From: Haloplasmataceae bacterium
Lineage (GTDB): Bacteria; Bacillota_I; Bacilli_A; Haloplasmatales; Haloplasmataceae
Assembly: GCA_029240795.1 (NCBI GenBank)
Contig: JARDZP010000003.1
Span: forward strand, 1 to 64,000
Direction: 5' to 3'
Length of the DNA: 64,000 nt
The position numbers and the translations under genes are program-made. Numbering within the stretch: the stretch's first letter is position 1; each line of letters opens with the position of its first letter. The notes under the pieces were generated by a model. That model worked only from the letters and a program-made list of their open reading frames with translations. It searched no databases and was not told the DNA's origin. Below, piece by piece: positions 20,166-44,647 of this stretch.

Positions 20166-20230
20166 TTGACAATAAATTTTACTTATTGTATCATTAAATT
20201 AGATATACGAATTAGGTTCGTATATGCGTA
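20166..20230 (+). promoter_or_regulatory. Promoter A with shared operator (yhcH)
   Basis: TTGACA (20166-20171), 17-base spacer, TATCAT (20189-20194). The operator lies just downstream: TACGAA (20206), five bases, TTCGTA (20217), two bases, TGCGTA (20225-20230). The first two halves belong to a longer perfect inverted repeat, ATATACGAA/TTCGTATAT. Covering the start site, it suits repression. Confidence 0.75.
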
Positions 20231-20277
20231 CTGTGAAGAATATAAAATACTTTCCTTTCTTTGTTTTAAACATTTAA

Positions 20278-20316
20278 CGCTATAAAACCTCATATTAATG
20301 GGGTTTTTATAGCTGT
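20278..20316 (+). other. Leader stem-loop upstream of yhcH
   Basis: GCTATAAAACCTC pairs with GGGGTTTTTATAGC around loop ATATTAAT. No T-run follows, so it is not a simple terminator; it sits in the ~150-base untranslated leader. Confidence 0.55.
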
Positions 20317-20360
20317 TAATATAAAATTTTGAAAACTAAATTAAGAAAAGAGGATAATAT

Positions 20361-20822
20361 ATGATTATTGGTAGAGAGTTAAAAGAATTAAGAAATTACT
20401 ATGGTCATAGTAAGAACTTAGATTTTGCGATTGATTTTATTTTAGGTAATGATCTTATAACCTTTGGGGTAGGTAAACAAGAATTATTAGGAAAAGAAGT
20501 AACTTTAAGTGTTGAAGAATATGAACCGAGAGACATTGAACAATGTTATTTTGAAAATCACCACAAATACTTAGACATTCAGATCGTGTTATCAGGTAAA
20601 GAAGGATTTGGTTATGCTAATGTAAATAATAAAGACTTACAAGTAACTAATGCATATAATGCAGATAAAGATATAGCTAAATATGCTCTTAAGCCTGAAT
20701 TTATATTTGAAATGCAAACAAATTCATTTGCGGTTGTTTATCCAGAAGATTTACATATGCCTAAAATTAAATTAGCTGATAGTTTACAAGTTAAAAAGGC
20801 TATTTTTAAAGTTAAATTATAA
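20361..20822 (+). CDS. yhcH: YhcH/YjgK/YiaL-family protein (DUF386)
   Basis: 153 aa, full length for the family. HHKYLDIQIVLSGKEGFGYANV and the C-terminal VVYPEDLHMPKIKL give the conserved cupin-like metal-binding positions. The family occurs with sialic acid, beta-galactoside and uronate catabolism and is thought to act on small sugar acids or anomers; the precise reaction is not established. GAAAAGAGGATAAT precedes ATG. It is driven by promoter A of the shared regulon and followed by a terminator before the IclR gene. Confidence 0.85.
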   Translation: MIIGRELKELRNYYGHSKNLDFAIDFILGNDLITFGVGKQELLGKEVTLSVEEYEPRDIEQCYFENHHKYLDIQIVLSGKEGFGYANVNNKDLQVTNAYNADKDIAKYALKPEFIFEMQTNSFAVVYPEDLHMPKIKLADSLQVKKAIFKVKL

Positions 20823-20825
20823 ATT

Positions 20826-20854
20826 AATCAAAGGCTTAATTAAAGCCTTTGATT
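20826..20854 (+). terminator. Rho-independent terminator
   Basis: AATCAAAGGCTT (20826-20837), loop AATTA, AAGCCTTTGATT (20843-20854), then TTTT. Confidence 0.85.
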
Positions 20855-20947
20855 TTTTCTTTATCTAGATTTAAAAGTTATAGATTATTATTCTTTTTTA
20901 GTGTAATATTAATATAGATGATGAATTGATAAGGTGAGGTTTCAAGT

Positions 20948-21697
20948 ATGAATCGTACATCAGAAAGAACAATAGAGATGCTAGAAATTATTTCTAAACA
21001 AATAAATGGCATCAGCTTAAAAGAAATAGTAGAAATAATGAATATTCCAAAATCAAGTGCTTTTGATATTTTACATACATTAATTAAATTAAGGGTTGTA
21101 TCTGAAAAAGAAGGTAAAGAAAAGAAATACGTTATAGGTGTAAAAGCATTTGAAATTGGTAGTACTTTTATGAAGGATATAGACTTAATCTCAAAAGCTA
21201 AATATGAATTAGAAGAATTGTCTGAAAAGTTAAATAAAACAACTTTTATTGGTGTTTTAGATGATGAACAAATATTATATGTTTATAAACACCAAGCTTC
21301 TAATGCGAAAATTACCGCAAGTAATGTAGGAAGTAAAAATGACTTATATAATACATCATTAGGAAAAGCGATTTTAGCTCATTTAGATAAAAGTAAACAA
21401 TTAGCAATAATCGATAGAATTAATTTCATTACGAAAACTCAAAATACAATTATTGATAAAAATATATTTATAAAAGAATTAGAGAAAGTCAGAAAATTAG
21501 GATATGCGGTAGATAATCGTGAACTAGAAAATCATATGTTATGTTTTGGAGCACCTGTTTTTGATTATACTGGAAATGTCATTGCTTCAATAAGTGTTTC
21601 AGGTCTTTATGATGATGAAACTAATTTTGAACTTAATGGTGAAATGATTAAAGAAACAGCGGCTAAAATATCTGCTAAACTAGGTAAATTACTATAA
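20948..21697 (+). CDS. IclR-family transcriptional regulator 1
   Basis: 249 aa. The N-terminal winged helix (about 1-65) has recognition-helix segment IPKSSAFDILHTLIKL. The C-terminal IclR effector domain is complete (GVKAFEIGS, SLGKAILAHLD, GYAVDNRELENHMLCFGAPVFD). IclR proteins bind sugar-acid ligands, and KdgR, the 2-keto-3-deoxygluconate regulator, belongs here. GATAAGGTGAGG precedes ATG. It is very similar throughout to the protein at 43770, and together they bracket the lyase and transport genes. I infer that it reads the five shared operators. Confidence 0.9.
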   Translation: MNRTSERTIEMLEIISKQINGISLKEIVEIMNIPKSSAFDILHTLIKLRVVSEKEGKEKKYVIGVKAFEIGSTFMKDIDLISKAKYELEELSEKLNKTTFIGVLDDEQILYVYKHQASNAKITASNVGSKNDLYNTSLGKAILAHLDKSKQLAIIDRINFITKTQNTIIDKNIFIKELEKVRKLGYAVDNRELENHMLCFGAPVFDYTGNVIASISVSGLYDDETNFELNGEMIKETAAKISAKLGKLL

Positions 21698-21745: not shown

Positions 21746-21759
21746 ATGTAAACGTTTTA
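21746..21759 (+). promoter_or_regulatory. Candidate cre box
   Basis: ATGTAAACGTTTTA fits the CcpA consensus WTGNAANCGNWNNCW apart from one position near the end. It lies 18 bases upstream of the -35 box of promoter B. Confidence 0.45.
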
Positions 21760-21777
21760 AGAAAAAAGTAATTTTTA

Positions 21778-21845
21778 TTGACATTATTTTTTTATTATAG
21801 TAATATAATATTATAATAATTCCGAACAGTGTTCGTAATTACGAA
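21778..21845 (+). promoter_or_regulatory. Promoter B with shared operator (lyase operon)
   Basis: TTGACA (21778-21783), 17-base spacer, TAATAT (21801-21806). The operator follows: TCCGAA (21821), five bases, then the perfect 14-base palindrome TTCGTAATTACGAA (21832-21845). It lies at or just after the start of transcription, which suits repression. Confidence 0.8.
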
Positions 21846-23024: not shown

Positions 23025-23774
23025 ATGAATAAAGTAGCAGTGGTCACAGGTGCTAGTGGGGGAATTGGCTTCTCTGTTTGTAAAACATTAGGTGAAGCTG
23101 GTTACACTGTTGTATTGAGTGACATCAATGAAGAAAGAGGACAAGAGAAAGTTATTCAATTAAGAGAACTCGGAATTAAATGTGATTTCTATAGTATTGA
23201 TGTTACAAATGAAGAACAAGTTAATGAAAAATTTAAATTAATTGGTGACAAATATACCAAAATTGATGCATTGATTAATGCCGCTGGTGGGTTAGGTGGA
23301 AGAAGTCGATTTGAAGATATGCCAACATCATTCTATCGCAGTGTTATGGCATTAAACTTAGATAGTGTCTTATTTGTTACCCGTGCAGCAATTCCTTTCC
23401 TTAAAAAATCTGGAAATGCTTCTATTGTTAACTTTACATCAATAGCAGGATGGAACGCAGGTGGACCTGGTGCTGGGGTTTATTCAGCAGCAAAAGCAGC
23501 CGTTACAACATTAACTAGAGCATATGCAAAAGACTTATCTGAATATAATATTAGAGCAAATGCTGTAAGTCCTGGTACAATTGATACACCATTCCATGCT
23601 GAAACAAAAACTAATAATCCAGCTTTGTTTGAATCATGGAAAAATGGAATTGTAATGAAACGTTTTGGAGAACCTCATGAGGTTGCATCAGTTGTTGAAT
23701 TTTTAGTTAGTGATAAAGCTTCATATCTAACTGGTGAAGTTATCCAAATAAATGGTGGTCAAGCATTTATTTAA
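23025..23774 (+). CDS. SDR-family oxidoreductase, possible uronate/DEH reductase
   Basis: 249 aa, a classical short-chain dehydrogenase/reductase. It has the NAD(P) motif GASGGIG, the NAAGG segment, a catalytic Ser in NFTSIAGW, and YSAAKAA. GGAGGAG precedes ATG. Its position right behind a lyase gene suggests it reduces the released 4-deoxy-5-ketouronate (DEH) to 2-keto-3-deoxygluconate, as alginate DEH reductases do; that is inference. KduD at 48366 is a separate SDR with an overlapping possible role. DVTNEEQV suggests a residue environment not decisive for NADH versus NADPH. Confidence 0.85.
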   Translation: MNKVAVVTGASGGIGFSVCKTLGEAGYTVVLSDINEERGQEKVIQLRELGIKCDFYSIDVTNEEQVNEKFKLIGDKYTKIDALINAAGGLGGRSRFEDMPTSFYRSVMALNLDSVLFVTRAAIPFLKKSGNASIVNFTSIAGWNAGGPGAGVYSAAKAAVTTLTRAYAKDLSEYNIRANAVSPGTIDTPFHAETKTNNPALFESWKNGIVMKRFGEPHEVASVVEFLVSDKASYLTGEVIQINGGQAFI

Positions 23775-25201: not shown

Positions 25202-25259
25202 AGAACCTATAATTTTAGTTACTAATTTTTTAGTAACTTTTTTCTACTTTTTTCGCCAT

Positions 25260-25321
25260 TCCGAATATCGTGCGTATATATGAAAAAGATATTGACTTAA
25301 AAACAATGACTATTATATAAT
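25260..25321 (+). promoter_or_regulatory. Promoter C with upstream shared operator
   Basis: Operator TCCGAA (25260), five bases, TGCGTA (25271), two bases, TATGAA (25279-25284). Then TTGACT (25292-25297) and TATAAT (25316-25321) with an 18-base spacer. The operator ends eight bases upstream of -35, so it may activate. This is the most degenerate of the five sites. Confidence 0.65.
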
Positions 25322-25380
25322 TATATATGGGAGAAAATGCTTTCATTTGTAAAAATGAAGCAAGAAAGAGGAGGATTGCT

Positions 25381-28300
25381 ATGAGAAAATTATCTTTATT
25401 CATGTTATTAATGATTATGTTAGTAGTTGCTAATGGATGTAGAAAATCAACAGAACAGAATACGTCAGCTACAACTACGGGTAGTACTACTACTACCACT
25501 ACTACTGTTTTGCAAGTACCCAGATTTAATAGTGCAATTGCTCGAAGTGGAGAAATTGCAAATAGTATTAGAATTATAGCAAGTGCTGAGGATAGTACTG
25601 CTGTAATTTATTTCGTAATTATTGCTGAAAACGCACAAGAACCCAATGATGTACAAATTAAAGCAGGGGTAAATTATGACGGTGTAACAATATTAGATAA
25701 AGGTTCTGCAATTGGAGAAATCGTTGAAGATAGAACGACAGGATTAGTTGGAGAAACGACATATAAAGTTGCCTTTGTACTAGAACTAAATGGAATGTTT
25801 AGTCAAGTAACTTTTAGAACAGCTGAAGCAACATCAGAGGATGATTTAGTAGATCGTGGAGACGGATCGAGTGAAAATCCTTTCTGGGTTGAAACCATAG
25901 CTGATTTACAAAAAGTAGGTACAGGAACCGATGGTTGGGCAAATACATTACATTATGTTTTAAAGAATGATATTGATTTAATAGGTGTTGATTGGAATCC
26001 AATCGGTAGAAATGAAGATGGAACATTTATTAAATTTAATGGAACATTTGATGGATCGGGTCATGTAATAAGTAATGTAACGATAAACAATAAGATTTGC
26101 TTTATTGATCCATTAGACGCAACAAAAAATGAAAAATCTGGTTTTTTCTGTGAATTAGACCTTGAAGGAGTAATTAAAAACTTTCATTTAAGAAATGTAA
26201 ATATAACAGCTAACGAAAAGCGTGTTGGTGGTATAGTCGGATACTCAAAAGGTATGATTGAAAACGTATCGGTTATAGGAGGAACAATTTCAGCAACAAC
26301 AGTAACTGACTCTCAAGTAGGTGGAATTGTTGGTGCGGTTTATGAATTAGGTTCTATCAGCAAAGCCTACACTGATATTACAGTTAAAGGTGAAGGAAAA
26401 CGTATTGGAGGTATAGTCGGATCAATAGATGTTTCAGATAAGTCAACAGAGAATTTAGTTATAAGTGATGTGTATACAATTGGTGATGTTATTGGATTAA
26501 CAGCTTCTTCTAATCAAGTGGGTGGAATTGTCGGTTATTCAAGAAACACTAACATCGAAAGAGCGTATGCATCAGGTAATATATACGGTACTACTGATAT
26601 TGGTGGAATTGCTGGATTTATGCAAAAAAGAAGTAGTAATACTTTATACGATGGTCAACCACAATTGAAAGATTCTTTCTATATGGGTAGTCAAGTTGTA
26701 GGTAAAGGGGATGCAAGCGGTGCAAATCGAGTTGGAGCTCTAGTAGGAAATATCTCTACCAATAATAATACCGTTGCAGTGTTAGTGAACAATTATGCTA
26801 TAGACTCTGTAATTCTTTCAGGTAAAGTTGGAACGACAGCTTATATGGGAACTAATGTTAATTTTGATAAATTTATAGATACTACTTGGTTATCAACTCA
26901 TTTAACTGGTTGGAATTTTACAAATGTTTGGGAAATAAAAACAAGTGCTGTTAGACCAGTTCTTAAAGGAATGAATGATAATGGATCTAAAGTTGAACAT
27001 ACAGTTGATTTATTAGTTTATGATGTATTAGCTAATAAGGGAGAAACAGTAGGTACATTAATAATTAATGCCAAATCAAATAAAACAGGAAATATTTACT
27101 ATGTATTAGTGTTAAAAGGACAAACAGCACCTACTGCAGTAGAAGTTAAGAGTGGTGCAAATTATGGTGATGTAACTTTAGTTGCATCTGGATCTGTGTT
27201 AAATTCAAAACAAATTAATGAAACTAAAGCTTTATTAATAAATACTGAATATGACTTATATGTTTATGTCGAAGCTGGTAGTGAAACTACTCCTGTTACA
27301 AAAGTATCAGGAATATCTCAAGATATATCAACAGGGGAAAAACTAATAGAAGCTAAAAATGGATTAGAAATAGGCTCTGCAGAAGTAAGCAGTAATGTAA
27401 CACTACCAGTTAATGGATTAAAAGGTTCTACCATTACTTGGTCTTCAAATAATACGGATGTAATAGCTAATGATGGTACGATTACAATACCTAATAGTAA
27501 TACTGAAGTAATATTAACAGCTACGATTACAATCGATGGTGAAAGTATAATAAAAACCTTTAATTTAACCGTTTTAGGTAAAACAGTTGAGGTAAGACTA
27601 ACAGAAGCTAAAGAAGGCTTAGTACTTACTTATACTAACGTAAATAGCAATATTATATTACCATCCAGTGGATTACATGAATCAACAATAACATGGATTT
27701 CAAGTAATCAGTCCGCTATAGCAAATGATGGTACATATACAAGTCCTGAAGTAGTTATAGTTATTACATTAACAGCAAGAGTTTCAATTAATGGACAGTC
27801 AGTAACAAAAGATTTTACTATAACTGTAACACCATTAACGATAGAAGAAAAACTAAATGAAGTTAAAAGTGCTTTAAATCTTGTGGCTGAAACAACAACT
27901 GATCTTTCACTAGTAACAGAAGGATTACATAATGCTACAATTACTTGGGTTTCAAGTAATCCAGAGGTCATTTCAAATACAGGAATATTTGTTAGACCTG
28001 AAACAAGTGTAGATGTAACCTTAACAGCAACGATCACAATCGATGATCAATCAGTGACAAAAGTATTTATAGTAAACGCAATAGAAATTGAAGTTAATCT
28101 TCCTTGGGGCGGTGAAAATCCTGAAACATTAGGTTTTTATCCAATTTATAGTGTTGCTGATTTAGAAGCGTACCGTGATGGCGCAAATAATGGAACTATA
28201 CCTAAAAATTCAACATTTAAATTAAAACGAAATATTGATATGTCAATTGAATATGGGCCTCAAGGGAAAAATTGGACTCCAATTGGATTTACGCCAGACG

Positions 28301-29172
28301 GAAGTGGAATTATAAAATGGAGAGGGACATTTGATGGCCAAGGCTATAAAATAAATGGATTATACATAGAAGAGACTTCTTTAAATAATAAAGATTATGG
28401 TATAGGTTTCTTCGGAACAGTTGATACAGGTGCAGTCATCAAAAATGTTAAATTTACAAATGTTTTTGTCAAAGGATTAACATCTGTAGGAACATTAATT
28501 GGTTATGGTAAACCCGCACTAGTTGAAAATGTGTCGGTGGATGGTGGTACTGTCATTTCAACAAATACAGGTGACTCTAGAGTTGGTGGCATAATTGGTA
28601 GATTAGCTCAATCTAGTACAGATTCATTAGTTAATAAATTGTGGTCAAATGTTTCAGTAAGTGGAAGTAAATATGTTGGTGGTTTAATCGGACATGTAGA
28701 TTATACTGCAGATACGACATTTATAATTTTTGTTAAGAATGTATATACACTTGGTGATACTACTGGTACAAGTGATTGGGTTGGTGGAGTAGTCGGTTTC
28801 TTAAGAGCTAGAATGGAAAATGCAGTATCTTATGGTAATGTATCAGGTAACAAAGTTGGTGGAGTAGTAGGTTATGTACAAAATCCTGCAGCAACAACAG
28901 CTAGACCGCTAGCTGCGCTTGATAATGCGATTGCTTTAAATTCTAGTATTATAGGAACAACTGAATCCGCTAGAGTTGTAATCGTAGCAGGTTCTAATGG
29001 TGAAGTAGATTCACTTACAAAATTATTTGCACTAGACACACTAGCAGGTGTAGATGGAACTAATGTAACTGCTTTAGAAATAATAGATGCTAATTGGTTT
29101 TCTACTAATTTACCAAGCTTTGATTTTACTAATGTTTGGCAAATTCTAGATGGTAAAGTAATTTTAAGATAA
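25381..29172 (+). CDS. Large surface lipoprotein with GLUG and Ig-like repeats
   Basis: 1263 aa from ATG 25381, preceded by GAGGAGG; upstream ATG 25327 lies within the promoter. The signal peptide ends VANGC (lipobox), then comes a Thr-rich linker. Next come a beta region (to ~150), GLUG-type repeats (VGGIVGYSKG, VGGIVGAV, IGGIVGSI, VGGIVGYSRN), a short fibronectin-like region, and three Ig-like repeats of atrophied-Big type (ITWSSNNTDVIANDG, ITWISSNQSAIANDG, ITWVSSNPEVISNTG). A second GLUG block ends the protein. It is probably anchored outside the cell as a polysaccharide- or surface-binding scaffold. No enzyme domain is recognised. Confidence 0.85.
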   Translation: MRKLSLFMLLMIMLVVANGCRKSTEQNTSATTTGSTTTTTTTVLQVPRFNSAIARSGEIANSIRIIASAEDSTAVIYFVIIAENAQEPNDVQIKAGVNYDGVTILDKGSAIGEIVEDRTTGLVGETTYKVAFVLELNGMFSQVTFRTAEATSEDDLVDRGDGSSENPFWVETIADLQKVGTGTDGWANTLHYVLKNDIDLIGVDWNPIGRNEDGTFIKFNGTFDGSGHVISNVTINNKICFIDPLDATKNEKSGFFCELDLEGVIKNFHLRNVNITANEKRVGGIVGYSKGMIENVSVIGGTISATTVTDSQVGGIVGAVYELGSISKAYTDITVKGEGKRIGGIVGSIDVSDKSTENLVISDVYTIGDVIGLTASSNQVGGIVGYSRNTNIERAYASGNIYGTTDIGGIAGFMQKRSSNTLYDGQPQLKDSFYMGSQVVGKGDASGANRVGALVGNISTNNNTVAVLVNNYAIDSVILSGKVGTTAYMGTNVNFDKFIDTTWLSTHLTGWNFTNVWEIKTSAVRPVLKGMNDNGSKVEHTVDLLVYDVLANKGETVGTLIINAKSNKTGNIYYVLVLKGQTAPTAVEVKSGANYGDVTLVASGSVLNSKQINETKALLINTEYDLYVYVEAGSETTPVTKVSGISQDISTGEKLIEAKNGLEIGSAEVSSNVTLPVNGLKGSTITWSSNNTDVIANDGTITIPNSNTEVILTATITIDGESIIKTFNLTVLGKTVEVRLTEAKEGLVLTYTNVNSNIILPSSGLHESTITWISSNQSAIANDGTYTSPEVVIVITLTARVSINGQSVTKDFTITVTPLTIEEKLNEVKSALNLVAETTTDLSLVTEGLHNATITWVSSNPEVISNTGIFVRPETSVDVTLTATITIDDQSVTKVFIVNAIEIEVNLPWGGENPETLGFYPIYSVADLEAYRDGANNGTIPKNSTFKLKRNIDMSIEYGPQGKNWTPIGFTPDGSGIIKWRGTFDGQGYKINGLYIEETSLNNKDYGIGFFGTVDTGAVIKNVKFTNVFVKGLTSVGTLIGYGKPALVENVSVDGGTVISTNTGDSRVGGIIGRLAQSSTDSLVNKLWSNVSVSGSKYVGGLIGHVDYTADTTFIIFVKNVYTLGDTTGTSDWVGGVVGFLRARMENAVSYGNVSGNKVGGVVGYVQNPAATTARPLAALDNAIALNSSIIGTTESARVVIVAGSNGEVDSLTKLFALDTLAGVDGTNVTALEIIDANWFSTNLPSFDFTNVWQILDGKVILR

Positions 29173-33047: not shown

Positions 33048-33055
33048 GTGTAAAA

Positions 33056-33919: not shown

Positions 33920-33924
33920 ATTGT

Positions 33925-33947
33925 TTTAAATTGCATGCCAATTTAAA
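33925..33947 (+). other. Intercistronic hairpin before the binding protein gene
   Basis: TTTAAATTG (33925-33933), loop CATGC, CAATTTAAA (33939-33947). No T-run. Such stems often let binding protein mRNA outlast the permease mRNA; that role is inferred. Confidence 0.5.
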
Positions 33948-33973
33948 TAAATAATAAATTATAGGAGGATAAA

Positions 33974-35977
33974 ATGAGAAAAATACTTACAGTTTTTGTA
34001 TTTATCATTACCTTAATAGTTCTTACTGCTTGTAAAACAACAAGTACAGAAAAAAGTGAAAATACCAATAATACATCATCAAGTGGAACAACTACGGCGA
34101 TTGACAACACACCCGGATCATTAAAATTCAATTTAGCTTTTGATAATTATGAAAGAACTATGACTTATAATCAAGGAGATCCATTAGTAATGCCTGATGG
34201 AAAAACCTTTGTACAAGGTGATTTGAAACCTGTATGGCAATACATTTCAGAAGAATTAAATATTGATTTTGAAGATGTAACAATTCAAGATCAATCAGGT
34301 GCAGAAATGATCAATTTTTCTGCAACTACACAATTTACTGATGCTGATATTTATGGAGGAAATAGTATTGGTGATGAATTAATGGCATATGGAGCTCAAG
34401 GATATTTTGTAAATTTAAATGAACATTTAAATTCTATGCCAAATTTCAAAGCCTATCTAGATGAATATCCAAGTGTTAAAAAAGCAATTACAGCTTATGA
34501 TGGTGGAATATATCATATTCCATACGTAGCTGAGATTGATAACTTCGCACGTATGTATGAAGTTAGAGAATCATGGGTTAAAACATTATTGGATTCACCT
34601 TTAAGTGGATTAGAAACTGAAACTGCTCAAATTACAACTGCATTTCAACCTTATTGGATTGGTTCAAATGCTCGTAATATTCAAAATGTAATTCAATTAC
34701 AAAATACGGCTGCAACAGGTGGTCTATTAACTCGTAACGTGGCTTTAACTAAATTAGTCGATTATATAAAAGTAACGTATCCAACATTTGCTAGTCAACC
34801 ATCTAAATTATTTCTAGGAGCAGAAGCTAAATATGACATCGATGAATTAGTGGCTTTATGGCGTGTTATAAGACTCTCTCCAAATACCTTATCTAAATTA
34901 GAAACAGGAACAGCTAATCCAGAAGCAGTAATTGCACCCTATTTCGTTAGACAATCTAGTTATAGAGAAGAACTATTTAGATTAGCTAATTATTTTAATG
35001 GACAACGCGTTCATGGTTCAGACTCATATGGCTCAAGATTCTATCTTGACAATGAAGGGGAATTACAATTCTCATATGCTGAAGATAGTTTCTTACAAAT
35101 CTTAGATTCTTTTAAAGCAATGTATTCTGAAGGCTTAATTCATCAAGAATTCGCAGATAAATCTAATAAAACAAACTTCAGAATGGACTTCTATGGAAAA
35201 GATACAGTTGTAAGCCATAAATTATTTGGATTTATGACATTCGACTTCACAGCTTCAACTACAGGAATTAAAGATCAAACTGATGTAACAGCAATTTTAC
35301 CACCAGTTAGTAAAATTAATGGTGGAAATGAATTTGTTCATTATATTGAAAATACGCGGGTTATTAAACCTGACGGATGGTCAATTTCAAAAACTACAAC
35401 TGGAAAAGATTTAGATGATGCACTTCGTTTATTTGATTATATGTTTAGTGAAGAAGGAAACGTCGTTCAAAACTATGGAGTACCTGCAAACATTGATCAA
35501 AATGAACAATTTACTGCACCAGATGGTACAAAGCATCCAAAATTAAACGCTTGGTTCCTAGAACAGGCAACTGAGCATTCAAGTGGGGACGCTTCAACAT
35601 TTGTTAGAGATTATATTGGTGGCAATATGCCTATTGGTTATTCGAAAGAAATCGGATTTGAATACCAATATACATCAGCACAAGGTTTTGCTTCATGGAA
35701 ATTATATAATGAGGCAAATATTTTTTCTTCAACTTATAAAGCAACAACAAGTCCATACTTCAGTCTAGTTCCACCTGTATTTTCATTAACAGAAGTTGAT
35801 TCAGATATATTAGCAACCTTAAACATTGGTGACTCACAAGTTGATGCAATGTTTGCATATGTTACAGGTGCACAAAATGCTGCAGCAGATTGGGAAGCAA
35901 TAAAACAATTATACGTGGCTGCAGGAATTGAAGATTACATTGATATCTATCGTGTAGCTTATGAAAGCATGAAATAA
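33974..35977 (+). CDS. Extracellular solute-binding lipoprotein of the ABC importer
   Basis: 667 aa. Signal peptide ending LTACK (Cys20), a Ser/Thr/Asn-rich linker, then a family 1 type solute-binding fold (GDLKPVWQYISEELNIDFE at the N-lobe; VIKPDGWSISKTT; LFDYMFSEEGNVVQNYGV). It resembles LplA/YtcQ lipoproteins but is longer than their usual ~500-550 residues; inserted segments lie around 210-330. GGAGG precedes ATG. It would deliver uronate oligosaccharides to the two permeases just upstream. It is the only binding protein in the island. Confidence 0.88.
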   Translation: MRKILTVFVFIITLIVLTACKTTSTEKSENTNNTSSSGTTTAIDNTPGSLKFNLAFDNYERTMTYNQGDPLVMPDGKTFVQGDLKPVWQYISEELNIDFEDVTIQDQSGAEMINFSATTQFTDADIYGGNSIGDELMAYGAQGYFVNLNEHLNSMPNFKAYLDEYPSVKKAITAYDGGIYHIPYVAEIDNFARMYEVRESWVKTLLDSPLSGLETETAQITTAFQPYWIGSNARNIQNVIQLQNTAATGGLLTRNVALTKLVDYIKVTYPTFASQPSKLFLGAEAKYDIDELVALWRVIRLSPNTLSKLETGTANPEAVIAPYFVRQSSYREELFRLANYFNGQRVHGSDSYGSRFYLDNEGELQFSYAEDSFLQILDSFKAMYSEGLIHQEFADKSNKTNFRMDFYGKDTVVSHKLFGFMTFDFTASTTGIKDQTDVTAILPPVSKINGGNEFVHYIENTRVIKPDGWSISKTTTGKDLDDALRLFDYMFSEEGNVVQNYGVPANIDQNEQFTAPDGTKHPKLNAWFLEQATEHSSGDASTFVRDYIGGNMPIGYSKEIGFEYQYTSAQGFASWKLYNEANIFSSTYKATTSPYFSLVPPVFSLTEVDSDILATLNIGDSQVDAMFAYVTGAQNAAADWEAIKQLYVAAGIEDYIDIYRVAYESMK

Positions 35978-35994
35978 AAAAACGTGTAGTGGGG

Positions 35995-36056
35995 GAGAAT
36001 TGTAAGAATTCTCTCTACTCCTAATATGAATATGAATATGTTCATATTAGGAGTAG
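35995..36056 (+). other. Two tandem hairpins after the binding protein gene
   Basis: First stem GAGAATT (35995-36001), loop GTAAG, AATTCTC. Second stem CTACTCCTAATATGAA (36015-36030), ten-base loop, TTCATATTAGGAGTAG (36041-36056), 16 perfect pairs, then AAAAAA rather than T. It is not a standard terminator on this strand. A 3' stabiliser or partial attenuator is more likely. Confidence 0.65.
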
Positions 36057-36080
36057 AAAAAACAAAGGGGAGTAAATTAG

Positions 36081-36611
36081 ATGATGAAAAAAATATTAAT
36101 TAAACTACAAAAATATATGACATTTATATATCTATTTTTCGCCGTATCAGTATTTGTGTACTCTTTAGGCTTTATTACGAAATTGCATGGATTATACTTA
36201 TATTACAATAGGTATAAAGATATACTTAATTATTATCGAGAAGTTTTACAACCATTTAATAACGAAATCTTTGATAGAGCTATAATATTTATATTATTAT
36301 CTTTGGCGTTGTTAATTTTGGAAATTAATAAAAAAGCCATGGGAATATTAGGATTAGTTCTTAGCATAGTAACCACAGTTTACTCTTATATTTATTCATT
36401 TAAATATATAAAACTATTAAAAGATTTAAAAGATCAATACTTACTATTTGATTTAACAAAATCTAAAAAATATACTAGTTCAACTATAACATTTGATATA
36501 GGTCATTCTCTCTATTTTACATTCGCTATTGTTTCAATATTATTATCAATAATTGTGATAATAAACTTCCTAGTTAAAATTAAAAATAGGGGGGCAAAAG
36601 AAAATGAGTAG
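36081..36611 (+). CDS. Uncharacterised membrane protein in ABC operon
   Basis: 176 aa, four predicted helices, with a lengthy extracytoplasmic loop between the first and second (YYNRYKDILNYYREVLQPFN). No family recognised. AAAGGGGAG precedes ATG ATG. Its end overlaps the next gene by eight bases, so they are coupled. It lies between the binding protein and ATPase genes of the same importer, and similar small membrane proteins follow (36604, 38191, 38689). Function unknown. Confidence 0.55.
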   Translation: MMKKILIKLQKYMTFIYLFFAVSVFVYSLGFITKLHGLYLYYNRYKDILNYYREVLQPFNNEIFDRAIIFILLSLALLILEINKKAMGILGLVLSIVTTVYSYIYSFKYIKLLKDLKDQYLLFDLTKSKKYTSSTITFDIGHSLYFTFAIVSILLSIIVIINFLVKIKNRGAKENE

Positions 36612-37047
36612 AAAAGAAAAATACTTATATCAAGAAAATCGTTTAGGTTATTCACTAGTAATATTATTTATATTGATAAATGCAGTTAATGCAATAGTTG
36701 AACTAAACAATATGAGTATTGATAAGGGTCTGGGAATAACTGTTTTTGTTAATATCATTATCTCATTAGTTACCTTTTTATCGGCAGTAAAAATTAAAAA
36801 GTATTTTATAAATTGGACATATTTTACATTCTTATTAGGTCTATTACAATTTTATCGAATAAAATTTGTTCCTATAGAAACAGCAGAGAAAGTTGGTAAA
36901 GTAATATTTTTTAACTTCTCTGTTAATAAAATATTGATTACTTGTTTAATTACTTCTGGAATACTAGCTATTATTGGAGCTTTAATCTCATTTAGAAAAT
37001 GTATTATCAGAAAGCGAATAATTAAGAGAAATTTAATTAAGGTATAA
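36604..37047 (+). CDS. Uncharacterised membrane protein in ABC operon
   Basis: 147 aa with four predicted helices and basic termini (MSRKEKYLYQENRLGY; RKCIIRKRIIKRN). No family recognised. AGGGGGGCAAAAG in the end of the preceding gene provides its ribosome site. It is followed 17 bases later by the importer ATPase. It is similar in size and helix number to the neighbouring small membrane proteins, but sequence kinship is not obvious by eye. Confidence 0.55.
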   Translation: MSRKEKYLYQENRLGYSLVILFILINAVNAIVELNNMSIDKGLGITVFVNIIISLVTFLSAVKIKKYFINWTYFTFLLGLLQFYRIKFVPIETAEKVGKVIFFNFSVNKILITCLITSGILAIIGALISFRKCIIRKRIIKRNLIKV

Positions 37048-37064
37048 TGAGGGAGGGATAAAAA

Positions 37065-38228
37065 ATGGCTGATTTAATACTTTCAGGAGTAAATAAAATT
37101 TATCCAAATGGTGTTCAAGCAGTATTTGACTTTTGTCTTGATATAAAGGATGGTGAATTCATTGTATTAGTAGGACCATCAGGTTGTGGTAAATCAACGA
37201 CACTAAGGATGATTGCCGGTCTTGAAGGGATAAGTTCAGGTGATTTAATTTTAGATGGAGTTAAAATAAATGACAAGGCTCCTTCTAATCGAGATATTAC
37301 AATGGTTTTCCAAGATTATGCTTTATATGGTAACATGACAGTGTATGAAAATATGGGTTTTAGTTTAACAGTTAGAAAAGAAAAAAGTGACAAAATCCAT
37401 GATGCTGTAATGGATATATCTAAAATTATTGGTTTAAATGATTATTTAAATCGATTACCTGCAAGATTATCGGGTGGCCAACGTCAAAGAGTTGCATTAG
37501 GTCGGTCAATTGTTCGAAATGCAAAAGTCTTTTTAATGGACGAACCACTGTCTAATTTGGATGCTCAATTGCGTCAACAAACACGTAAAGAAATTGTTGT
37601 TTTACATAATAAACTTAATGCAACGATCGTCTATGTTACTCATGATCAAGTAGAAGCAATGACCATGGCTACTCGAATAGTTGTTATGAATAATGGTTAT
37701 GTACAACAAGTTGGAACTCCTTTTGAAGTATATAATAATCCAGATAATATGTTTGTAGGTGGTTTTATTGGAACTCCACCTATGAATTTCCTACAAGGAA
37801 CTATTAAGGGGAATTATTTTATTGTTTTAGATGAAAAAGAAACCGAGGTATTAGTTAAACTAGAAATACCAAATTCAAAGCTTAATGAATTAACTGAATA
37901 CAATAATAAAGCTGTTGCATTAGGTTTTAGAGCAGAGCATTTATTCATTGAGAATGAAAAACTATCATTACATAAAGAGTCAGCTATTAAGGGGATTGTT
38001 GATGTAGCGGAATTATTAGGTTCTGAAATCTTAGTTAAAGTTTGTGTAGGTAAAAACAAGTTTATAGCGAAAATAAACTCTAATAACGAAGTTTATAATG
38101 GACAATCTATAATATTAGCTTTGGATATGAATAAGGTACACTTCTTTGATATAGATACATTGATAAGAATTAGAAAATTAGGAGGGAAAAATGGATATAC
38201 AGAACAAAATAGACAAAAAAAATGTTAA
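37065..38228 (+). CDS. ABC sugar importer ATPase, MsmK/UgpC type
   Basis: 387 aa. Walker A GPSGCGKST, signature LSGGQRQRVALGRSIV, Walker B VFLMDEPLSNLDAQ, and VTHDQVEAMTMATR. The ~140-residue C-terminal OB-type regulatory domain (GTPPMNFLQGTI; GFRAEHLFIE) is that of MsmK/UgpC/MalK. It energises CUT1 importers. Lpl-type systems usually borrow a distant shared ATPase, so a dedicated one inside the operon is notable. GAGGGAGG precedes ATG. The next gene begins inside its 3' end (38-base overlap). Confidence 0.92.
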   Translation: MADLILSGVNKIYPNGVQAVFDFCLDIKDGEFIVLVGPSGCGKSTTLRMIAGLEGISSGDLILDGVKINDKAPSNRDITMVFQDYALYGNMTVYENMGFSLTVRKEKSDKIHDAVMDISKIIGLNDYLNRLPARLSGGQRQRVALGRSIVRNAKVFLMDEPLSNLDAQLRQQTRKEIVVLHNKLNATIVYVTHDQVEAMTMATRIVVMNNGYVQQVGTPFEVYNNPDNMFVGGFIGTPPMNFLQGTIKGNYFIVLDEKETEVLVKLEIPNSKLNELTEYNNKAVALGFRAEHLFIENEKLSLHKESAIKGIVDVAELLGSEILVKVCVGKNKFIAKINSNNEVYNGQSIILALDMNKVHFFDIDTLIRIRKLGGKNGYTEQNRQKKC

Positions 38229-38688: not shown

Positions 38689-39168
38689 ATGCAAATTAAG
38701 AGATTCAAATATTGGAGCGATGAAACTAAAGGCAATTTACTGAGAGTATGGGCAGTAGGTGCTGTTTATTTTTTTATTGGTTGGGGAACTTCATTCGGAC
38801 AAGCAGATTCATATTTAGATAGTATCTTTTTTCTAGCATTAGGTATTACGTTAATTACAATACTTGTGGTTAACCCAATAATAAGAGGAATGTTAAAAAC
38901 ATCATTGGATAAAAAGTATAACGAGACAACAGTTTCTAGTAAAGTTTTTAATCGTCTTACAATCTTTTTTGAATCGTTACTCATTGTCATTTTGATTGTT
39001 TTAACATATCAACTTATAAATCAAATTCTGATTGTTGTTTTAAAATTATCTGAAGAAGTTATAGTACTTCCAGTTGAACCGTTTTTATTTTCACTCTTTT
39101 ATTTTATTTATTATTATCTATTAAATAAAATAATTTTCGTATTTATAAAAAGAAAAAGTAATAGGTGA
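38689..39168 (+). CDS. Uncharacterised membrane protein in ABC operon
   Basis: 159 aa, four predicted helices (about 18-33, 42-62, 85-110, 122-147), opening QIKRFKYWSDETKGNLLRVWAVGA and ending with a basic KRKSNR. AGGTGAGG precedes ATG six bases after the previous gene. No family recognised. The following lyase gene begins immediately at its end, so transport and cleavage genes are one transcript. Confidence 0.55.
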   Translation: MQIKRFKYWSDETKGNLLRVWAVGAVYFFIGWGTSFGQADSYLDSIFFLALGITLITILVVNPIIRGMLKTSLDKKYNETTVSSKVFNRLTIFFESLLIVILIVLTYQLINQILIVVLKLSEEVIVLPVEPFLFSLFYFIYYYLLNKIIFVFIKRKSNR

Positions 39169-39173
39169 TTTTA

Positions 39174-41279
39174 ATGGGGAAATATGTTTTTATAAATCAA
39201 GACATAGAAATTTTAAGAGAAGAAATCAAAGGAGTTAGACTCCCTTTTTTAAAACGATTATTAGAACAATGTGAGTTATATAAGACTATAAAACTATCTA
39301 TGGAACATCCATCAAAAAGCACAACTTTTATGGGAATAGCGTGTGCTAACTTAGCGCTTGCATACTTGTTGACGAAACAAGATCAATATCTTAATGAGGC
39401 TAAACGATGGATTTTTACCATTGTAGGGTATAAAAAATGGGGTAATGCTCATTTAGTTAATGTTGATTTAAGTGCTTCTTGGATTATGTTTGGTTTATCT
39501 TTAGCTTATGATTGGTTAAAGGAAAATTTTAATGAGGAGGAAAGATTACTTGTATTAAACAAATTAATTTTACAAAGTGAAATAATGTATGATTACAAGA
39601 TTGTAAACGAGGGTGAAGGCTGGCCAACTCAATATTGGCAAAATCATAATTGGATTAATTTAACTGGTCTAGCAACTGCTGGTTATGCACTTCAAGATGA
39701 ATATGAAGGAGCAAAAAAGTGGATAGAAGAAGCCAAAAATAACTTCTCACTTGTCTATGATTACCTTCCTGAAGATGGAAGTGATTATGAAGGGGTTGTA
39801 TATTGGCGATACGGGGTAATGTGGTTATTTATTTATGCCCACTTAATAAAAGTTGAAGAGGGAATGGATTATTTTAAAATTAATCATTTCTTAAAAAACA
39901 CTTTTTATTATCGTTTATATCAAGCTGTACCTAATTTAGAAGAAATAGTAAACATTGGCGATTGTCATGATCGTCGTAGTGGACATTCAACCGCGATCTA
40001 TTATAAAGTTGCTGCTGAATATCAAAATGGTCATGCTCAATATTTAGCTAATTTAGTTAGAAATGAATTTTTATTCAGAGAACAATATGAAAGTCATGTA
40101 AAACCTGGAATATTATCTGAGGCAATGTTTGAATTATTATGGTATAACCCACAAATAGAAGAAAAGCATTTTTCTGATTTACCATTTGTCAAGTTTTTTC
40201 CTGATTTAGGTCTTATTGTCGTTCGTTCAAGTTGGGATAAAGATGCGCTTCATCTATCCTTTAAATCGGGTCATCCAGGTGGAAAGAAACAATGGGAAAA
40301 ACTTTGGAAATTATATAATGAAAAAAGTTATAATTGTTTTGGATTAAGTCATCAACATGCTGATAATAATGCATTCATACTTCATGGATATGGCGCATAT
40401 TTAGCAATTGATGAAGGATACAATCGAGAAGTAAAAACTTTAGAACATAATGTCGTTATTATTGATGATAAAGGTTATCCTGTGGAAAATGTTAACGATG
40501 TTCTAACTCAATCAGCATTTAAACTACTAAACGATAATCCCAGTTTTAATCCAACCACTGACTTTATTTCATCAATTGATTTATTTATGAATGAAGCGAA
40601 CATTACTGCATTTAAAGGAAATGCGTCTAGAATGTATGATCGTTCATTAAACTTAGAGCAATTTACTCGTACATTTTTATATACTGGGAAAGAATATTTT
40701 ATTATTTTAGATGAATTAAGAAGTAAAGATGAACATAAATATACTTGGATGATGCACACAGATACTTTAGGAAAAAATGTAAAACCAGGTGTTTATGATT
40801 ATACTAATGGTTTAGCAAGTATGAATTTAACGAATTTATTTCCAGATAACGCTAAATATTCTCAAACAGAAACATATGTGAAAGCAGTAATGACAACTCA
40901 AGAACCTGATAATTATCGTGAAATATTAATGAACACTTTAAAAATTGAAAATGAAATAAAATCAAATTCTGTAAATTTTTTAAATATATTAACGCCAAGG
41001 CATTTTTATGAAACGGAAAAATTTGAAATCATTAAAATTAGTAACAAAGATACAATCGGTGTAATAGTAAAGGGAAAAGATTTTAAAGATATCTACTTAT
41101 ACTCTCATTCTAATAATATTGAATATGAAAATATCAAAGCGAACGCTATATGGGTATTATGTCAATTTGAATGGGATAAAGTATGTAAGGTTGCCTGTCA
41201 TGAGGTTACTTACCTGAGTATAGAAAATAAAGTAATTGTTAATGAGAGTGGGAAAACGAATCTTATAAAAGAGGTGTAA
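39174..41279 (+). CDS. Heparinase II/III-family lyase 1 (oligouronate lyase)
   Basis: About 701 aa from ATG 39174, behind AGGTGATTTTA; GTG 39165 is also in frame. The N-terminal alpha-toroid (to ~340) contains YWQNHNWINLTGLATAGYAL and EDGSDYEGVVYWRYG. The C-terminal heparinase II/III beta-sheet domain has FGLSHQHADNNAFILHGYGA followed by YLAIDEGYN, where the Asn/His/Tyr set is expected to catalyse beta-elimination. No signal peptide is present, so it acts on imported chains. PL15/PL17/PL21-like relatives act on alginate or glycosaminoglycans; the substrate is open. Confidence 0.82.
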   Translation: MGKYVFINQDIEILREEIKGVRLPFLKRLLEQCELYKTIKLSMEHPSKSTTFMGIACANLALAYLLTKQDQYLNEAKRWIFTIVGYKKWGNAHLVNVDLSASWIMFGLSLAYDWLKENFNEEERLLVLNKLILQSEIMYDYKIVNEGEGWPTQYWQNHNWINLTGLATAGYALQDEYEGAKKWIEEAKNNFSLVYDYLPEDGSDYEGVVYWRYGVMWLFIYAHLIKVEEGMDYFKINHFLKNTFYYRLYQAVPNLEEIVNIGDCHDRRSGHSTAIYYKVAAEYQNGHAQYLANLVRNEFLFREQYESHVKPGILSEAMFELLWYNPQIEEKHFSDLPFVKFFPDLGLIVVRSSWDKDALHLSFKSGHPGGKKQWEKLWKLYNEKSYNCFGLSHQHADNNAFILHGYGAYLAIDEGYNREVKTLEHNVVIIDDKGYPVENVNDVLTQSAFKLLNDNPSFNPTTDFISSIDLFMNEANITAFKGNASRMYDRSLNLEQFTRTFLYTGKEYFIILDELRSKDEHKYTWMMHTDTLGKNVKPGVYDYTNGLASMNLTNLFPDNAKYSQTETYVKAVMTTQEPDNYREILMNTLKIENEIKSNSVNFLNILTPRHFYETEKFEIIKISNKDTIGVIVKGKDFKDIYLYSHSNNIEYENIKANAIWVLCQFEWDKVCKVACHEVTYLSIENKVIVNESGKTNLIKEV

Positions 41280-41280
41280 T

Positions 41281-43335
41281 ATGGAATATTTAAATGAGGA
41301 GCTATTAATTAAGTCAATTAATAATAATGTTGATTATCAAAATATGGTTGATCAGCTTAAGATTGAAGTCGATTATTTTTGTAGTACGTTTAGTGATGAT
41401 CCCCAAAAAATAAGTGGTTGGGGGCATAAATATTTTTGTCAAGATGATGGGGGTCGATTAATATTTGATTTAACTAAACCTCATTCACAAAAATGTGATA
41501 TTTGTGGTAAAGAATACACAGGCGACTTGTACGATAGCATTTGGGTTTATAATTATCGTAATGAAGCAATTTTAATTTCTTGGAAGTCAGCATTGTTATA
41601 TAAAATTACCCAGGAAGTAAAATATTTAGATTATGTAAAGCAAATTATTGGTTTTTATGCAGATCATTATTTGGAATTTAAACTTCATAATAAAGATGGT
41701 CATATCTATGAAAGTTTAGATGATATGGTATGGGGCTGCGGAAGATTAATGCCACAAGGATTAAATGAATCACTCTTTATAATAAGACTCGTAAATGCTT
41801 TAGAAATTGTAAAAAGTGATTTAGGTGATAGTTTTATAAGTAGTGTTAATGAAAAATTATTTAAGGAAGTTTTTAAATTATTAAAACCCCAAGTAAATAA
41901 AGTTCATAATATTATAGCTTGGAATAATAGTGCGATTGGCACAATGGGTTTATTTTCTAATAATGAAGAAATGCTAGACTTTGTCTTCAAAGGGGAGTTT
42001 AATATTCGTCGTCAAATCCGTGAAGGAGTAACAAGTGATGGGTTTTGGTATGAAGGATCAATTCACTACAATTTCTTTACTTTAGAAGGAATAATTAATT
42101 TATTATTATTCTCAAAACTTTATGATTTTGAATTTGGTGAAGAAGAATTAATCATTAAAAACATGTTAACTGCTGCCTACCAATATGCTTTTGACAATCA
42201 CGTCTTTCCAAATCCTAATGATGGGTGGCCAGATATTAATTTAAAAACATATTCGTACGTATATACAGTAGCAACAAAAATTTTTGGTTACGACAGTGAA
42301 GTAGCTAATTTATTAAAAAATATTGAGAATAAAAATACATTAAGAGTATCTGTTCCACTTTCAAAACCATATTATTTTGATAATCGAATTCCACTTGAAA
42401 GATTATCATTAATTCCTAATCTTAATATGGAAAACTATTATCCAGTTGTAAGTACATCAAAAAACTTTGAACAATCTCAATTTGGTGTAATTAGAAGAAA
42501 TAACATCAATGTCTTTTTAAAGTACGGTCATCGAGGACCTTCACATGCTCATCCTGATAAAATGACGATTGAAGTGATGATTGGAAATAAAATGTTAACA
42601 AGAGATCTATCAAATTCAGGTTATGGAGCTATATTATGCAATGAATGGCATCGTATGTCAGCATCTCATAATACTGTAATTGTAAATGGTAAAAATCAAG
42701 TTTCAATGGAAGGTGGTAATACTATATCATTTGAAGAGTATTGTTTGCATTCTAATGTATCTAATGTATATTCTATTTCTAATAAAATAGATATCGAAAC
42801 AATGAAAAATACAATGAATGAAGATGAAGTAATTAAATATTTGGTTAAAAATCTATTTATGACAGAACATGAAGCAAAAGAAGCAATTGGAAGTAAAAAA
42901 AATATGAGCGAGATCGCAGAAGAAGCGATTCTTTCTGCACCAAAGGTCAATTATGATCGTAAAATTCAACTATTAGACAATGGATTTATTGATGAATTCA
43001 TTGTTACCTCAAATCAAGAAGTTATTTTTGATTATTTCTTCCATTCTGAAGCAGATTTATTAACAACGTTAGTAACGGAAGAATATTCATTAGGATTTGA
43101 TGAAAATGGATTTCAACATATCAAAAATGTTAGAAAAGTTGTTTCGAGTAATAAAAATTTAGTACTCAAGTGGCGTTTAGGTGAATATTTATTAGAAAGT
43201 AACATTGATTTAGATGATAAAGAATTGTTATTAGCAGAAACTTATGATAATCCCATTACAAAAAATCGTACATCGATAGTAATTCGTCATAAGGGCATGA
43301 ATGCTGTGTATTCATTAATTTGGAAAATTATATAA
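41281..43335 (+). CDS. Heparinase II/III-family lyase 2 (oligoalginate-lyase-like)
   Basis: 684 aa. Four Cys in FCQDD...KCDICGKEYTG form a possible structural zinc site near the N-terminus. The toroid carries HNIIAWNNSAIGTMGLF and EGSIHYNFFTLEGI (Asn/His/Tyr). The C-terminal domain has GHRGPSHAHPDKMTIEV and then WHRMSASHNTVIVNGKNQ, the heparinase II/III signature. The family includes exo-acting oligoalginate lyases. No signal peptide. GAGGTG lies upstream. It follows lyase 1 by one base, and the two may split endo and exo steps or different linkages. Confidence 0.85.
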   Translation: MEYLNEELLIKSINNNVDYQNMVDQLKIEVDYFCSTFSDDPQKISGWGHKYFCQDDGGRLIFDLTKPHSQKCDICGKEYTGDLYDSIWVYNYRNEAILISWKSALLYKITQEVKYLDYVKQIIGFYADHYLEFKLHNKDGHIYESLDDMVWGCGRLMPQGLNESLFIIRLVNALEIVKSDLGDSFISSVNEKLFKEVFKLLKPQVNKVHNIIAWNNSAIGTMGLFSNNEEMLDFVFKGEFNIRRQIREGVTSDGFWYEGSIHYNFFTLEGIINLLLFSKLYDFEFGEEELIIKNMLTAAYQYAFDNHVFPNPNDGWPDINLKTYSYVYTVATKIFGYDSEVANLLKNIENKNTLRVSVPLSKPYYFDNRIPLERLSLIPNLNMENYYPVVSTSKNFEQSQFGVIRRNNINVFLKYGHRGPSHAHPDKMTIEVMIGNKMLTRDLSNSGYGAILCNEWHRMSASHNTVIVNGKNQVSMEGGNTISFEEYCLHSNVSNVYSISNKIDIETMKNTMNEDEVIKYLVKNLFMTEHEAKEAIGSKKNMSEIAEEAILSAPKVNYDRKIQLLDNGFIDEFIVTSNQEVIFDYFFHSEADLLTTLVTEEYSLGFDENGFQHIKNVRKVVSSNKNLVLKWRLGEYLLESNIDLDDKELLLAETYDNPITKNRTSIVIRHKGMNAVYSLIWKII

Positions 43336-43349
43336 TAAGGAGAGATAAA

Positions 43350-43688
43350 ATGGAAGTAAAAAATTTTTTTATGAACTTAGAAGTTGAGTTACAAGATTTA
43401 GGGAATGGAATTAGTCGTAAAATTTTGGCTTACAATGATAACTTAATGATCGTTGAAGTGAGCTTTGATAAGGGTTCAGTAGGTACATTACATTCACACC
43501 CACATGAGCAAATTACTTATATTTTAGAAGGTGAATTTGAATTTACAATAAATGGGGTAAAAAAAGTAGTAAAAGCTGGAGATTCGATGTATAAACAACC
43601 TAACATAATTCACGGAGCAATTTGTTTAAAAAAAGGCAAATTACTTGATATATTTACTCCACACCGAGAAGATTTTTTGAAAAAATAA
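43350..43688 (+). CDS. kdgF: KdgF-like cupin (unsaturated uronate ring opening)
   Basis: 112 aa from ATG 43350, chosen by AAGGAGAG just upstream. Single-domain cupin: HSHPHEQITYILEGEFEF gives His48, His50 and Gln54, and IIHG gives His88, with D100-I-F102 near the end. These correspond to the metal and active-site residues reported for KdgF. KdgF converts 4,5-unsaturated monouronate from pectin or alginate to linear ketouronate. It is the last gene of the lyase run, exactly where its substrate is made. Confidence 0.88.
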   Translation: MEVKNFFMNLEVELQDLGNGISRKILAYNDNLMIVEVSFDKGSVGTLHSHPHEQITYILEGEFEFTINGVKKVVKAGDSMYKQPNIIHGAICLKKGKLLDIFTPHREDFLKK

Positions 43689-43769
43689 TATAATTTGTGA
43701 TACAATAGAGTTTGTTACAGTTAATTTTTGGTGAATATATAAATAGAAGTAATAAAATGGAGTGTTAAT

Positions 43770-44513
43770 ATGAATAAAACAGTTAATAAGGCGATAAGAA
43801 TACTAGATTTAATATCAAAACATAAAAATGGTTTATCATTAAGTGAAATTGCAGAAAAAACCAATTTAGCAAAGTCTAGTACTTATGATATTTTAGATGA
43901 ATTATTAAATGAACATATATTAGAATTAAAAGAGAAAAAATATTACGTAATAGGTATAAAGGCTTTTGAGATAGGTACAACTTATATAAATAATACTGAT
44001 GTAGTAACGAAGGGTAAAAGTGATATCGAGACACTAGCTGAAGCGTTGAATAAGACTGCTTTTATAGGAACACTACAAGGTGATGAGGTAATCTATATTT
44101 ACAAATTTCAAGGTACGAATGCTAAATTAACTGCATGTAACATAGGGACTCATAAGAAATTATATTATACAGCTTTGGGAAAAGTTTTGTTAGCCTATAT
44201 GGATGAATCAGAGCGTAATAACATTATAAAAGATACTAATTTTGTAAAGCATACTGAATATACTATTACAAATAAAGAACAACTAATTGCTGATTTAGAA
44301 CAAATTAAAAGACAAGGCTTCTCAGTAGATAATCGAGAAGGTGAAAGTCATATGCTGTGTTTTGGTGCTCCTATTTTTGATTACTCTGGTAAAGTGGTAG
44401 CCTCTGCAAGTATATCTGATTTATACGATGAAAAGGTAAATATAAATGATTTAGGTAACAAGTTAAAAGATGTTTGCCTTAATATATCAAGAAAATTAGG
44501 TTATAACAAATAA
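43770..44513 (+). CDS. IclR-family transcriptional regulator 2
   Basis: 247 aa. Winged helix with NLAKSSTYDILDELLNEHIL, and an IclR effector domain nearly parallel to regulator 1: GIKAFEIGTTYI, NAKLTACNIGTHKKLYYTAL, GFSVDNREGESHMLCFGAPIFD. The recognition helix KSSTYDIL is close to KSSAFDIL of regulator 1, so the two may bind the same operators. TGGAGTG precedes ATG. It is expressed behind kdgF with an 81-base gap that may hold its own promoter (TGATACAAT). A terminator follows. Confidence 0.9.
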   Translation: MNKTVNKAIRILDLISKHKNGLSLSEIAEKTNLAKSSTYDILDELLNEHILELKEKKYYVIGIKAFEIGTTYINNTDVVTKGKSDIETLAEALNKTAFIGTLQGDEVIYIYKFQGTNAKLTACNIGTHKKLYYTALGKVLLAYMDESERNNIIKDTNFVKHTEYTITNKEQLIADLEQIKRQGFSVDNREGESHMLCFGAPIFDYSGKVVASASISDLYDEKVNINDLGNKLKDVCLNISRKLGYNK

Positions 44514-44520
44514 TGTATTT

Positions 44521-44550
44521 AGGTGAGATTTTTAAACTAAAATTTCACCT
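44521..44550 (+). terminator. Rho-independent terminator
   Basis: AGGTGAGATTTT pairs with AAAATTTCACCT (one mismatch), followed by eight T. Confidence 0.85.
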
Positions 44551-44578
44551 TTTTTTTATTGAAATGATACATTTATGA

Positions 44579-44647
44579 TTGACTTTAAAAAGGTAATATT
44601 GTATCATTTACATGTGGGTATATACGAACTCTGTTCGTAAATGCGAA
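44579..44647 (+). promoter_or_regulatory. Promoter E with shared operator (KDG operon)
   Basis: TTGACT (44579-44584), 17-base spacer, TATCAT (44602-44607): the same boxes as promoter A. Then TACGAA (44623), five bases, TTCGTA (44634), two bases, TGCGAA (44642-44647). Covers the region downstream of the start, which suits repression. Confidence 0.8.

Follow-up and report, generated by a model that had tools for sequence, protein, structure and literature searches.

Genes and sites of the locus

The stretch of DNA analysed here, 64,000 nucleotides of contig JARDZP010000003.1 from a Haloplasmataceae bacterium (hereafter the window), contains a predicted 24-kb locus for the utilisation of an alginate-type polyuronate, in which five promoters share the three-box sequence TMCGAA-N5-TTCGTA-N2-TRCGAA (TMCGAANNNNNTTCGTANNTRCGAA). 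The locus unites alginate-type lyases, an AlgQ-like importer, and the 2-keto-3-deoxygluconate (KDG) pathway; the enzymes resemble known ones too distantly for the substrate to be named with certainty, and another polyuronate is possible. The results described below support the view that the five sites are a real operator that marks this locus as one uronate regulon.

When the pattern was scanned with mismatches allowed, the five copies claimed in a preliminary description of the window were found with the same spacing at 20206..20230 (A, TACGAATTAGGTTCGTATATGCGTA), 21821..21845 (B, TCCGAACAGTGTTCGTAATTACGAA), 25260..25284 (C, TCCGAATATCGTGCGTATATATGAA), 31412..31436 (D, TACGAAAATTAATCGCATATGCGAA), and 44623..44647 (E, TACGAACTCTGTTCGTAAATGCGAA), with 1, 0, 2, 2, and 0 mismatches, respectively. 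These sites, their promoters, and the genes described in the next paragraph are on the plus strand. As had also been described, a TTGACA/TTGACT-17/18-TATAAT-like pair lies close to all five, the -35 and -10 hexamers being at 20166-20171 and 20189-20194 for A, 21778-21783 and 21801-21806 for B, 25292-25297 and 25316-25321 for C, 31444-31449 and 31467-31472 for D, and 44579-44584 and 44602-44607 for E. Relative to the -10 hexamer, the start of the site is 11 nt downstream in A, 14 nt in B, and 15 nt in E. In C and D, by contrast, the site lies upstream of the promoter, with exactly 7 nt between its end and the -35 hexamer.

Site A precedes yhcH (20361..20822; YhcH/YjgK/YiaL family, PF04074). A terminator-like hairpin at 20826-20854 separates yhcH from iclR1 (20948..21697), which encodes a candidate regulator and may therefore have its own promoter instead of being driven from site A. 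Behind site B are the genes for an Alginate_lyase-family enzyme (PF05426; 21871..22998), whose nearest solved structures are 9fi1/8bdq ("alginate lyase family protein"), for a short-chain dehydrogenase/reductase (SDR) oxidoreductase (23025..23774), which might be an unsaturated-uronate reductase, and for a multidrug and toxic compound extrusion (MATE) transporter. Downstream of site C lies the gene for a secreted protein with a GLUG motif and aBig_2 domains (25327..29172), although a GGAGG ribosome-binding site suggests that it probably starts at 25381 instead of 25327. Site D stands before an operon comprising ATP-binding cassette (ABC) importer genes (31520..38228) and two genes for heparinase II/III-fold lyases (39165..43335), of which 39165-41279 is related to the oligoalginate lyase 3a0o and 41281-43335 to PL17 alginate lyases. 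Finally, iclR2 (43770..44513), which encodes the other candidate regulator, a sister paralogue of IclR1, is followed by site E and the catabolic operon (44751..49127), consisting of eda (44751-45389), two kdgK-like PfkB kinase genes (45397-46410 and 46425-47447), kduI (47517-48353), and kduD (48366-49127). These downstream genes agree with the preliminary description, except that its eda-kdgK-kduI-kduD operon was corrected to include both kinases.

The importer genes encode two permeases (32085-33047 and 33041-33919), a binding protein of 667 amino acids (33974-35977) that matches Sphingomonas AlgQ2/AlgQ1 (1e-31), and an ATPase (37065-38228), that is, an alginate-type ABC importer in an apparently Gram-positive-type lineage. 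The AlgQ-like binding protein, the two permeases, and the ATPase are shared with the Sphingomonas alginate importer (AlgM1-AlgM2-AlgS-AlgQ1/Q2), whereas the window operon belongs to a different lineage, contains extra small proteins, and stands behind the three-box operator. Similar operons were observed in two related genomes, G001 (L032) and G033 (L090, L035). No convincing Pfam match was obtained for the small proteins of the importer and KDG operons (31520-32101, 36081-36611, 36604-37047, 38191-38682, 38689-39168, and 49143-49811); the equivalent operons of G001 and G033 also contain relatives of those starting at 31520 and 36604.

Occurrence of the three-box pattern

In the window, 9 matches with three or fewer mismatches were obtained, four of which came from reading sites already matched in a shifted position on the minus strand, whereas 100 shuffles gave a mean of 0.17 matches and a maximum of 2. 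Random sequence, to which the preliminary description had looked as a possible source of equal scores, thus did not score as well. All matches with two or fewer mismatches in the host genome (2.67 Mb in 181 contigs) were inside the window, and the 4 matches with three mismatches outside it were at the level of the whole-genome reversed control, which gave 6. The boxes alternate in direction, with offsets of 0, 11, and 19 in 23 sites. The 14-bp palindrome alone was rejected as a marker, because its genome-wide count was at the control level; therefore, the three-box geometry is needed.

Given how short and degenerate the boxes are, it has to be considered whether their recurrence in AT-rich DNA is due to chance or to a mobile repeat. 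This explanation is refuted by the excess of matches in the window and the genome scan above, as well as by shuffles of iclR neighbourhoods and scans of relatives described below. Furthermore, the flanks of the sites are dissimilar, except those of C and D, and the boxes are kept in relatives despite different flanks. We accordingly assign it a negligible probability.

Three-box sites in related genomes

When 60 relatives were scanned for exact matches to TMCGAA-N5-TTYGTA-N2-TRCGAA, mismatch-free sites were found only in the window genome and in G001 and G002, both of the same family. The exact site of G001 lies beside an iclR orthologue and before yhcH-eda-kdgK; that of G002 also lies beside an iclR orthologue and before eda. 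With 0-2 mismatches allowed, sites were observed before kdgK (G002, G265, and G007), before ABC operons (G033, G265, and G347), before genes for solute-binding lipoproteins (G028, G074, and G082), and before the gene for a pectinesterase protein in G033 and its counterpart in G244; a 2-mismatch site in G082 precedes a weak pectinesterase-like protein, and a phosphotransferase system (PTS) EIIC is also among the genes downstream. The site adjoins an iclR gene in four genomes (G001, G002, G318, and G224), preceding iclR itself in the latter two. Altogether, six families of the class have three-box sites.

A class-wide IclR profile search gave a relative at 1e-30 or better in 46 of 395 genomes. 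The co-occurrence of this clade and the site was examined with 25 of the strongest clade genomes, including the window genome, and 25 genomes without the clade. Excluding the window genome, 15 sites with one or no mismatch were found in the 24 clade genomes versus 2 in the 25 clade-free genomes (binomial p about 0.001 for 15 of 17 at even odds). One of the latter two precedes kdgK and the other lies inside a coding frame. Shuffling 100 kb of iclR neighbourhoods gave no matches at two or fewer mismatches.

Three observations were made beside these scans. In G058, a glucuronate isomerase (UxaC) fused to a mannitol-dehydrogenase-type oxidoreductase (L097:8538-11411) stands behind an exact three-box site. 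In G001, the iclR gene has a single palindrome, TTCGTAAATACGAT, at L029:9517-9530, just upstream of the probable start and next to TTGACA, which likely points to autoregulation. Close relatives (77-80%) of the second PfkB kinase of the window (46425-47447) are likewise preceded by the operator in G002, G007, and G265, and this kinase may for this reason be the true KDG kinase of the clade.

Candidate regulators

Both IclR1 and IclR2 contain the IclR helix-turn-helix domain (PF09339) and the IclR effector domain (PF01614), and the IclR profile matches the KdgR structures 1ysp and 5y6i. The two proteins, which are 48% identical, form a sister pair in the tree (84/83 support), where they group with the proteins of motif-bearing genomes. 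Their recognition helix, KSS-x-[FY]-DIL in both, appears as PK[ST]S-x-[FY]-DI in most of this clade. The IclR proteins of G025 and G040 have a helix of the STVH type (RSTVHGLV or PSTVHRLL), and the three-box site was not found in their loci.

The preliminary description had proposed both paralogues as the binders of the operator. An IclR-family protein is indeed by far the best candidate, since the motif tracks the clade, adjoins the gene, and has the three-box layout; the two paralogues, sisters with the same helix, are both candidate binders. That only one of them binds, the other having diverged to another site or ligand, is a considerable possibility, if not the outcome we would expect. 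IclR1 is nearer than IclR2 to the G001 orthologue beside the exact site (46% vs 38%), and the recognition helix of IclR2 departs more (AKSSTYDILDELL). However, KSS-x-[FY]-DIL is kept in both of these sisters, and a second conserved motif was not seen, although it was not systematically sought.

The binding of IclR proteins to the sites is deduced from sequence, which leaves room for a non-IclR regulator with its gene in another part of the genome, the link with IclR being coincidental. We consider this very unlikely, because the sites track the IclR clade across the six families and in four genomes adjoin the iclR gene, and because the letters and alternation of the boxes are those of IclR sites.

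Comparison with known IclR and KdgR systems

Suvorova and Gelfand (2021, PMC8222616) described two types of IclR site, and in addition alternating three-box sites, predicted in 32 orthologous groups, and palindromes arranged in tandem at distances of 18-22 nt, in 94 groups. The published three-box operators of PcaU, PobR, and HmgR likewise have three boxes of alternating direction; the examples named there control aromatic catabolism, whereas the present sites precede uronate genes. Boxes 2-3 of our pattern, TTCGY-ANNT-RCGAA in B, D, E, and most relatives, fit the group 1 consensus TYCRY-W3-4-RYGRA in letters and spacing, and boxes 1-2 converge like group 2 (TGRAACA-N1-2-TGTTYCA).

The proteobacterial KdgR box, RWWGAAACGNCGTTTCAKKA, differs from the present one in letters and spacing; that Enterobacteria use a different box had been noted in the preliminary description, correctly as far as the letters are concerned. 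The regulon of gamma-proteobacterial KdgR shares with the window the KDG-forming genes (kduI, kduD, kdgK, and eda), lyases, and sites beside the promoter. However, its box consists of two boxes, GAA-N7-TTC, whereas the window has three boxes with CGAA cores at an alginate-type locus. IclR-family KdgR proteins have been described outside Proteobacteria as well. That of Caldicellulosiruptor bescii is a predicted repressor of KDG genes with sites in 5' untranslated regions or promoters (PMC8579813); that of Thermotoga maritima does not cover kdgK or kdgA (PMC3750489). The accessible parts of these two reports describe no alginate locus. When the literature was searched for the box letters together with IclR, no earlier description of the operator emerged; the search did not extend to RegPrecise or to the PMC8222616 supplementary tables.

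Fourth box and cre-like elements

A fourth half-site was observed at offset -8 of three sites: TTCGCC at 25252-25257 of C (4/6 letters), TTCGTA at 31404-31409 of D (6/6), and a weak one, TGGGTA, at 44615-44620 of E (4/6). With this box, the operators extend over 25252..25284, 31404..31436, and 44615..44647, respectively, and form two 14-bp palindromes 19 bp apart, a distance inside the 18-22 given in PMC8222616. Site B has an extra half-site on the other (right) side, TTCACA at 21851-21856 (4/6 letters). In the sites of relatives, the -8 box is absent and only three boxes are present. A four-box operator was rejected as a conserved unit, since the double-palindrome pattern matched no relative at three or fewer mismatches; the four-box arrangement is therefore specific to the window.

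Elements resembling the catabolite responsive element (cre) of CcpA were found at four of the five promoters. One, TGTAAACGTTTTAA (21747..21760), lies upstream of promoter B and is individually within chance; AGAAAATGCTTTCA (25332..25345) and AGAAAGTGCTTACA (31484..31497) start 48 nt after sites C and D, respectively, with AGAAARTGCTTWCA common to both; and TGTAAGCGCTACAA (44681..44694) lies after site E. All are on the plus strand. Such elements are not over-represented in the window (15 vs 16.3 expected), whereas 4 of the 12 cre-like places fall near the five sites against 0.27 expected, a count noticed after the fact. The host genome encodes a CcpA-like LacI protein (G000:C97:2419-3399; 336 bits, below the curated cut-off of 442). 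Because of these elements and this protein, it is conceivable, though weakly indicated, that catabolite repression may be layered on the IclR control.

The modules around C (25252-25360) and D (31404-31510) match almost to the nucleotide in operator position, -35/-10 hexamers, and cre-like spacing, as if one had been copied from the other or both were under the same constraint. Over the 75 nt past the operator, the identity between promoters C and D is 52% when aligned in register, as compared with 33% (maximum 43%) out of register. The identical 7-nt spacing could equally be explained if the two promoters descend from a common ancestor.

Proposed regulation

Taken together, these findings suggest that the sites are very probably the operator of a KdgR-like IclR-family factor, be it IclR1, IclR2, or both, controlling one alginate-type polyuronate locus. 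Several points weigh against this assignment. Neither protein passed the NCBIfam KdgR model, for which the cut-off is 275 bits and their scores are 162 and 152, and we therefore call them KdgR-like instead of KdgR. The two cannot be told apart as the binder. No site at two or fewer mismatches was found by the pattern scan in the IclR-bearing genomes G217, G329, and G322, in which the box must have drifted or the regulator must differ. The convergent spacer, CGAA-N5-TTCG, is 2-3 nt shorter than the published average of group 2 (YGRA-N7/8-TYCR) in the same register, or else, in a shifted register, two letters per box differ, so that only boxes 2-3 agree exactly with the published consensus. Finally, the host genome is 86% complete, which may conceal more sites.

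The ligand and the sign of control are proposed with lower confidence than the operator and the IclR assignment. The box pairs of alternating direction would bind IclR dimers, and the two palindromes created by the fourth box at C, D, and E would suit a tetramer. Without substrate, the protein bound just after the -10 hexamer at A, B, and E would block transcription. Once the lyases, the importer, and KduI/KduD deliver uronate, KDG or 2-keto-3-deoxy-6-phosphogluconate (KDPG) would bind the C-terminal domain and the protein would be released. The inducer is probably one of these two, since all routes pass through them and the operator is shared by pectin-type and alginate-type loci. Ligand-relieved repression is favoured because, wherever a promoter could be recognised in relatives, nearly all sites start 5-20 nt after the -10 hexamer, the classical position of a repressor. 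At C and D, the protein just upstream of the -35 hexamer may repress or activate, repression being slightly preferred.

Among IclR relatives, PcaU and PobR are activators. The same protein might repress at A, B, and E and, through contact with RNA polymerase from a site immediately upstream of the -35 hexamer, activate at C and D, as the preliminary description had hinted, the fourth box allowing a different dimer arrangement. The geometry of C and D is in keeping with such a dual mode, since it is nearly identical (operator end, 7 nt, TTGACT, 17/18 nt, TATAAT, with the cre-like element 48 nt after the operator) and both carry the fourth box. However, activation at C and D is not supported by relatives, as the promoters of ABC operons and secreted proteins in G033, G244, and G265 have the site 13-20 nt after the -10 hexamer, and the similarity of C and D may reflect common descent. 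Moreover, the -35 and -10 hexamers of C and D are near consensus (11/12), so an activator may not be needed. We therefore regard the dual mode as unlikely. More doubtful still is a division of labour between IclR1 and IclR2, or between two dimer arrangements of a single protein, with repression of the catabolic promoters from a position after the -10 hexamer and activation of those of the importer and the secreted protein from a position exactly 7 nt before the -35 hexamer, the number and position of the boxes setting the sign.

Significance

Three alternating boxes are already known as a published type of IclR site; what is new is the present operator as a member of that type. That IclR proteins can dimerise in two ways is a published but unproven idea, and the natural set of sites described here, with three or four boxes before or after the promoter, would allow it to be tested. 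For the class as a whole, the results provide an operator, a likely regulator, and a gene set for uronate catabolism, with no published site found for this regulator, and the uronate regulons of uncultured relatives may thereby become readable from sequence.

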